This document shows, piece after piece, positions 4,814-43,682 of a DNA stretch of 64,000 bases. Each line of letters starts with the position of its first letter. Position 1 is the first letter of the stretch. The translations under genes and the position numbers were made by a program. Source of the DNA: Halichondria panicea. Its lineage: Eukaryota; Porifera; Demospongiae; Suberitida; Halichondriidae. The notes under the pieces are model-generated. The model was not told the origin of the DNA. It ran no database searches and was given only the letters and a program-made list of their open reading frames with translations. The stretch is from positions 4,588,042-4,652,041 of the forward strand of contig NC_087377.1 of the NCBI RefSeq assembly GCF_963675165.1, written 5' to 3'.

Positions 4814-4880
4814 ATGAAGACAGCTGCATTCATATTTGGCGTCTTGTTCCTGTGGTCATGGCAACCAGCCAGCGCACAGA
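4814..4880 (+). CDS. Exon 1: start codon and signal peptide
   Basis: Encodes [20 protein letters not shown] then AQ: a basic N-end, a hydrophobic core and small residues before a likely cleavage after ASA. The exon ends in phase 1 at a strong donor (GTAAGT) and joins in frame to the Sushi exon at 8728. An almost identical exon sits at 46428-46494. An unseen exon in the 3.8 kb intron cannot be excluded. Confidence 0.8.

Positions 4881-43682: not shown

Follow-up and report, generated by a model that had tools for sequence, protein, structure and literature searches.

The question raised by this locus of Halichondria panicea is whether a single gene joins a MUC4/SUSD2-type core to Sushi, Calx-beta and EGF domains and, if so, how such a combination came about. 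The window, the whole stretch of 64,000 nt analysed here, is C1:4588042-4652041 of a genome searched in 39 contigs (131.5 Mb), and positions without a contig prefix refer to it. We consider it probable that the single predicted gene is a fusion of two gene families and that it encodes a likely secreted, self-cleaved matrix or adhesion protein. Exons 7-28 are referred to as the core. Relatives are A0, directly upstream; C and D, core genes standing apart on the same chromosome; and gene B, a relative of the exons on both sides of the core.

The predicted gene (4814-43682, plus strand) comprises 70 exons totalling 11,589 nt and translates into 3,862 aa with a single stop at the very end, with AG/GT borders found at all 69 introns. 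Phase 1 accounts for 61 of the 69 introns (four each are in phase 0 and phase 2), an excess with a binomial tail of 4e-20 if 35% of introns are assumed to be in phase 1. The chain was rebuilt with a splice-aware gene finder based on dynamic programming, for which EGF exons and further seed exons served as the training set, and the gaps in its output were then read by eye; signal peptides were judged by eye throughout. Start and end of the rebuilt chain agree to the base with the original prediction, whose strand, 70 exons, whole-codon exon sum and "nearly all" phase-1 introns were likewise reproduced. Compared with the final 70 exons, the gene finder returned 57 exactly and 6 with one common boundary and missed 7; it placed no additional exon within 4814-43682 and continued its chain to 57945. 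Seven of the 70 exons were placed by eye, all of which were found again in relatives (A0, C/D or gene B). Because the gene finder merges neighbouring genes (at C1:3.48-3.52 Mb a single 54-exon chain took in genes C and D together with the stretch between them), its one-gene output at this locus is weak evidence. The features of the gene are as follows.

4814-4880 (+): exon 1, signal-peptide-like start of gene-B type, by eye; DNA found again in A0, at 46.4 kb and in gene B
8728-8928 (+): exon 2, Sushi 1 (Pfam Sushi E 2.8e-4)
9185-9917 (+): exons 3 (9185-9307) and 4 (9714-9917), Calx-beta-like 1 (Pfam E 0.11, below cut-off)
10335-11258 (+): exons 5 (10335-10463) and 6 (11136-11258), EGF (Pfam)
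11313-11490 (+): putative 5' fusion junction interval in intron 6, gene-B-type to core-type DNA
11564-12358 (+): exon 7, 265-codon domain, first exon of the core; no Pfam match
12564-12684, 12765-12985, 13226-13507 (+): exons 8, 9 and 10; no domain match; kept in A0, C and D
13614-13922, 14233-14559 (+): exons 11 and 12; no domain match; kept in A0, C and D
14685-16758 (+): exons 13 (14685-14827), 14 (15518-15853) and 15 (16235-16758), NIDO (Pfam E 7.1e-19)
16235-17076 (+): exons 15 and 16 (16880-17076), AMOP, beginning within exon 15; by homology to a paralogue
17993-18930 (+): exons 17 (17993-18195), 18 (18275-18506) and 19 (18817-18930), VWD (Pfam E 6.8e-13)
18004-18015 (+): GDPH in the VWD, residues 1372-1375
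19392-19637 (+): exon 20, MUC4-type C8-3 (Pfam PF23263 E 2.4e-9)
19803-20074 (+): exon 21; no domain match; kept in A0, C and D
20301-22338 (+): exons 22-28, EGF exons closing the core (Pfam cEGF, 5 stretches)
20301-20400, 20578-20733, 20894-21010, 21178-21300 (+): exons 22-25
21399-21524, 21755-21868, 22195-22338 (+): exons 26-28
22348-22510 (+): putative 3' fusion junction interval in intron 28, core-type to gene-B-type DNA
22570-22770 (+): exon 29, Sushi 2; 89% DNA identity to exon 2; no Pfam call
24092-24699 (+): exons 30 (24092-24214) and 31 (24496-24699), Calx-beta-like 2 (Pfam E 0.017, below cut-off)
25115-35628 (+): exons 32-52, 21 EGF_CA (Pfam EGF_CA, 21 stretches)
36059-37959 (+): exons 53 (36059-36184), 54 (36494-36697), 55 (36892-37050) and 56 (37747-37959), Calx-beta-like 3 and Calx-beta 4
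38297-38378, 38447-38541 (+): exons 57-58, Sushi 3 (Pfam Sushi)
38789-38923, 39048-39164 (+): exons 59-60, between Sushi 3 and Sushi 4
39548-39644, 39813-39907 (+): exons 61-62, Sushi 4 (Pfam Sushi)
40351-43682 (+): exons 63-70, tail with stop; no Pfam match
40351-40488, 40572-40706, 41587-41712, 42271-42402 (+): exons 63-66
42548-42688, 42875-43009, 43087-43230, 43558-43682 (+): exons 67-70

Most of the domains originally predicted are recognized by Pfam at the E values given above. This applies to NIDO, to the VWD, which carries GDPH, and to the EGF domains, of which 2 + 5 + 21 = 28 have Pfam support, the 21 being consecutive EGF_CA; further EGF-like cysteine patterns are visible by eye in exons 22-23. 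A MUC4-type C8-3 is also present. Three of the four expected Sushi domains exceed the Pfam cut-off (Sushi 3 and 4 jointly E 8.7e-19), whereas Sushi 2 was uncalled although it is similar to Sushi 1 (74% protein and 89% DNA identity). Among the four expected Calx-beta domains the fourth was called (Pfam E 3.1e-10), but copies 1 and 2 fall below the cut-off and copy 3 was uncalled. AMOP gave no Pfam match at E ≤ 5 in our protein and two paralogues, but the stretch aligns with a NIDO-AMOP paralogue on C12 in the same genome (BLASTP E 8e-12, 24%), where Pfam calls AMOP at 5.1e-9, so that this domain stands by homology and not by a direct match. The C12 gene (C12:4179811-4180870) is followed by a VWD-like frame and has the genome's only AMOP above the Pfam cut-off.

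The Ig domain found no support, either from Pfam or from a profile of exons 11-12 compared with solved structures, which gave chance-level matches only. Exons 7-12 and the tail exons had no Pfam match. The highest 19-residue hydropathy mean across the whole protein is 1.66, with no transmembrane segment recognized. The protein contains 54 N-glycosylation sequons; its content of Ser, Thr and Pro is 19.9% and no Ser/Thr/Pro-rich repeat was seen, which gives no support for a mucus protein in the strict sense. At C4:6.55-6.60 Mb, NIDO exons adjoin frames that resemble Calx-beta repeats by eye, and NIDO and Calx-beta may thus be combined elsewhere in the genome too.

The exons outside the core are internally repetitive. 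A Sushi-Calx-EGF-EGF module is present on both flanks of the core: DNA identity between exons 30-31 and exons 3-4 is 87–94%, and exons 5 and 6 each have a 97% identical counterpart, in exons 32 and 42, respectively. Typed by identity, exons 33-51 of the EGF rod consist of six copies of a three-exon unit and one extra exon.

The core belongs to a large family on the same chromosome. A genome search with exon 7 gave 27 matches, 21 of which are open copies on C1 (including ours and A0): 5 at 1.09–1.17 Mb (minus strand), 13 at 3.23–3.69 Mb (plus), 1 at 3.78 Mb (minus) and 2 at 4.56–4.60 Mb (plus). Four of the remaining matches represent two broken copies near C1 3.41 and 3.63 Mb, and two are distant matches on C6. 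Exon 14 gave 39 matches, 18 of them at an identity of at least 73%, all on C1 and all open, while the NIDO search gave 110 exon-level matches. Genes C and D lie within C1:3480001-3520000, C with exons 7 to 28 and D with exons 7 to 27, where the analysed stretch ends. The signal peptide of both genes (2 of 2 read) differs from ours (MKFLIAVALLVVG...). Past exon 28 of gene C, a short segment leads to a strong transmembrane stretch and then to a tail with YERYKTIK as its last residues; we read this tail as the end of the gene, the gene finder having run through it. Gene C is the one stand-alone member read past exon 28, and in this single case the family is, judging from its sequence, a MUC4-like type I membrane protein. 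Between C and D, C1:3499935-3501898 holds a short open chain with a signal-peptide-like start, a transmembrane stretch and, by eye, Ig/FN3-like stretches (Pfam fn3 just E 0.16).

Exon 7 is the most divergent block of the core, with a dN/dS of 0.37–0.49 that is the highest among the core blocks compared, none of which exceeds 1. It has 58 relatives in public contigs (90% clusters) at 47–65% identity, and an AlphaFold model built with them is fair, consisting mostly of strands (pLDDT 78.5, pTM 0.63), with no clear fold relative. The exon-7 copies of A0 and C have 100% matches in public contigs, compared with 65% for ours and 79% for D; polymorphism and missed gene predictions both fit these values. 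The 58 public relatives, two of which are 91–93% like the A0 copy, outnumber the 21 open copies here, and polymorphism or several species are possible sources of the surplus. The weak matches on C6 (30–33%; C6:7377846-7378142 and C6:2396561-2397127) lie in repeats of giant open frames, predicted at 41,557 and 10,065 aa; 666 codons of each were read and proved open, with one kind of repeat throughout, and if real these frames would be giant intronless genes.

The exons outside the core have their counterpart in gene B (C1:2896863-2914632, minus strand), 1.7 Mb from our gene. Its order is signal peptide, Sushi, Calx-beta, seven EGF, Calx 3-4, Sushi 3, tail and terminal exon. Exons 59-62 are missing. 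Of the tail exons, 63-66 and 68-70 have relatives at this locus, of which 18 kb were read; the expected place of exon 67 falls in a 1.5-kb gap. Gene B matches exons 3 and 4 at 52% and 58%, and its terminal exon is 46% identical to ours, with the stop one codon later. The DNA of exon 1 has its fourth genomic match at gene B (92%), and the Sushi-Calx module has its nearest relative, apart from the copies in our gene, at C1:2910931-2911962, beside the gene-B block of Calx and tail exons. Among the 56 of 1,418 candidates scored in a search with exons 53-70, the Calx/tail relatives were our gene, A0 and C1:2897601-2905225 (minus strand), the other matches being Sushi stretches. The genome searches gave neither a NIDO nor an exon-7 match at the gene-B locus, where the Calx blocks lie 5 kb apart, compared with a core span of 10.8 kb in our gene.

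The paralogue A0 (C1:4557290-4587272) shows 44 exon matches in the same order as ours: signal peptide, exons 7-28, three EGF, Calx 3-4, Sushi 3-4 and tail exons. Sushi-Calx modules 1 and 2 are absent, there are 3 EGF compared with our 21, and decayed EGF pieces are left in two introns. Exons 63-70 are 93–100% identical to ours, with a 40-residue stretch of the terminal exon fully identical. No stop was found in the 43 exons compared, and dN/dS is 0.32 (dS 0.21, dN 0.07), which indicates constraint. The tail has the lowest dS (0.04) and exon 7 the highest (0.62); such uneven divergence points to conversion or mixed ancestry and makes dating unsafe. The join of core to tail is common to A0 and our gene, while the 5' join to Sushi 1 is found only in ours. 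Since A0 has both the core-to-tail order and part of intron 28 in common with our gene, the fusion is likely older than the split between the two.

The surroundings of the gene carry further copies. Window positions 46344-48274 are a 93% copy of 4730-6678 (the signal-peptide exon and the start of intron 1) and include an orphan exon 1 (46429-46495, plus strand), downstream of which no further exon of the gene was found up to C1:4692041 (E 1e-3). Copia-like retrotransposon stretches, recognized by eye at 239-1205 and 44077-46266, lie upstream of both signal-peptide exons and are 93% identical over their overlap. The stretch 7330-8670 in intron 1 may be, by eye, the remnant of a hAT-type element, and at 55380-56023 a unit of about 90 bp is repeated in tandem, its copies being 86–90% alike.

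The transitions between the two kinds of DNA were mapped within introns. Intron 6 resembles the DNA that follows exon 42 up to position 11312 and, from 11491, the DNA preceding exon 7 of gene C. Intron 28 resembles gene C after exon 28 up to 22347 and, from 22511, the DNA preceding Sushi 1. Both junctions, bracketed to 178 and 163 bp, fall in phase-1 introns. According to the criterion given in the available part of PMC8001218, blocks of class 1-1 preserve the reading frame in exon shuffling, and the core is such a block, flanked by introns of the same phase (6 and 28). Donor-type and recipient-type relatives (core genes C and D; gene B) stand apart on the same chromosome. The open frame, whose signal peptide and terminal exon are both of B type, the separate relatives and the phase-1 junctions together point to an exon-shuffled fusion.

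The separate existence of gene B and the core genes would also fit two head-to-tail genes, one of core type as far as about exon 28 and one of gene-B type from about exon 29, the more so as the second half opens with the module that follows the signal peptide in gene B. We consider this unlikely. Intron 28 measures 231 bp and contains no signal-peptide-like start; the first half opens with a gene-B signal peptide; the core-type signal peptide, anchor segments and tail were not found in 264 kb around our gene (E ≤ 0.1); and in A0, where the order is the same, there is a single signal peptide. The paralogue structure, intron 28 and the mapped junctions favour the one gene originally proposed, in which a MUC4/SUSD2-type core is combined with Sushi, Calx-beta and EGF domains. 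The arrangement is indeed unusual, and fusion of two gene families is its probable cause.

Sponge aggregation factors are secreted proteoglycan cores with tandem Calx-beta, VWD and Wreath domains, and our gene combines Calx-beta (one of four above the Pfam cut-off) and VWD in one predicted secreted protein and belongs to a tandem family with a fast-changing domain. Its core is different, however, being of MUC4 type (NIDO, AMOP by homology, C8-3), and it is quite unlikely that the predicted protein is itself an aggregation factor. A role of these factors in adhesion and allorecognition is described in the part of PMC8380372 available.

An assembly error among near-identical tandem copies might be suspected at a locus as repetitive as this one (A0, the orphan exon 1, the copia copies), but A0, 35 kb away and 60–100% identical per exon, has the same core-to-tail join, which makes an artefact highly improbable. 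That the core is a separate gene nested within an intron of a gene-B-type gene, as its position between two gene-B-type blocks could suggest, is hardly credible given that the core lacks its own signal peptide, stop, anchor and tail here and is spliced in phase 1 to the exons on either side.

Fusion of the core family with the gene-B family would have come about through intronic recombination, perhaps of two adjacent genes, with the core gene losing its original signal peptide and its membrane anchor in the process. The product would be secreted by means of the predicted B-type signal peptide and cleaved at GDPH in the VWD, as proposed for MUC4, into chains of approximately 153 and 264 kDa before glycosylation, which may stay attached to each other. 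The core would keep its binding partner, which may be another cell, the matrix or a microbe, and contact it through the variable exon-7 domain and NIDO; an EGF rod stiffened by calcium would, together with the Calx-beta and Sushi domains, provide an anchor in the matrix or a bridge between cells. A MUC4-like surface protein was likely turned in this way into a secreted, self-cleaved, calcium-dependent matrix protein, as far as its sequence can tell. The adhesion role of the original prediction is a fair inference; its alternative, a mucus protein in the strict sense, is not supported.

The 21 open copies of exon 7, the most divergent domain, lead us to speculate that the core family could be a polymorphic array of receptors for self/non-self or microbes, and that the fusion gene made one such receptor a soluble partner, anchored in the matrix, by which its membrane relatives are bridged or blocked. 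The idea is doubtful; if true, a recognition system and its secreted counterpart would have one origin on one chromosome. The donor family, whose genes form a large tandem array and whose N-terminal domain is divergent and unclassified, is in any case a lead for studies of recognition.

Shuffling of phase-1 modules is the textbook account of the origin of animal matrix and adhesion proteins and has mostly been inferred from ancient products. Here the putative chimera, its sister copy, the donor-type family and the recipient-type gene are found on one chromosome, and the junctions are bracketed to less than 180 bp inside introns, so that the route can be tested by sequencing relatives. The locus would be a concrete case of new 3' exons turning a membrane protein into a secreted one. 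Both NIDO-AMOP-VWD proteins and exon shuffling are well known; no description of the domain set or the fusion was found in the literature searched.

Several known proteins resemble the predicted one in part. SUSD2 has AMOP, VWD and Sushi together, as does our protein if its AMOP, assigned by homology, is counted; ours adds NIDO, C8-3, Calx-beta and a long EGF rod, and no transmembrane stretch was seen in it. The AMOP domain of SUSD2 is listed in the accessible section of PMC11788884. Skeletal matrix proteins of Corallium and stony corals contain AMOP, NIDO, vWD, EGF and Ig-like domains according to the portion of PMC7853314 available. Compared by these listed domains, NIDO, vWD, EGF and, by homology, AMOP occur in our protein too, but Calx-beta is not among the coral domains listed in that portion. 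A correspondence in order is found with MUC4, whose layout and proposed GDPH cleavage are taken from an excerpt of PMC8660890: as far as described there, NIDO, AMOP (in ours by homology), VWD with GDPH, C8-3 and EGF follow each other in the same order in our protein. The latter differs from MUC4 in having no transmembrane stretch, tail or mucin repeat and in adding Sushi, Calx-beta and 21 EGF_CA, and gene C, with its transmembrane stretch and tail, is closer to MUC4 than our gene is.
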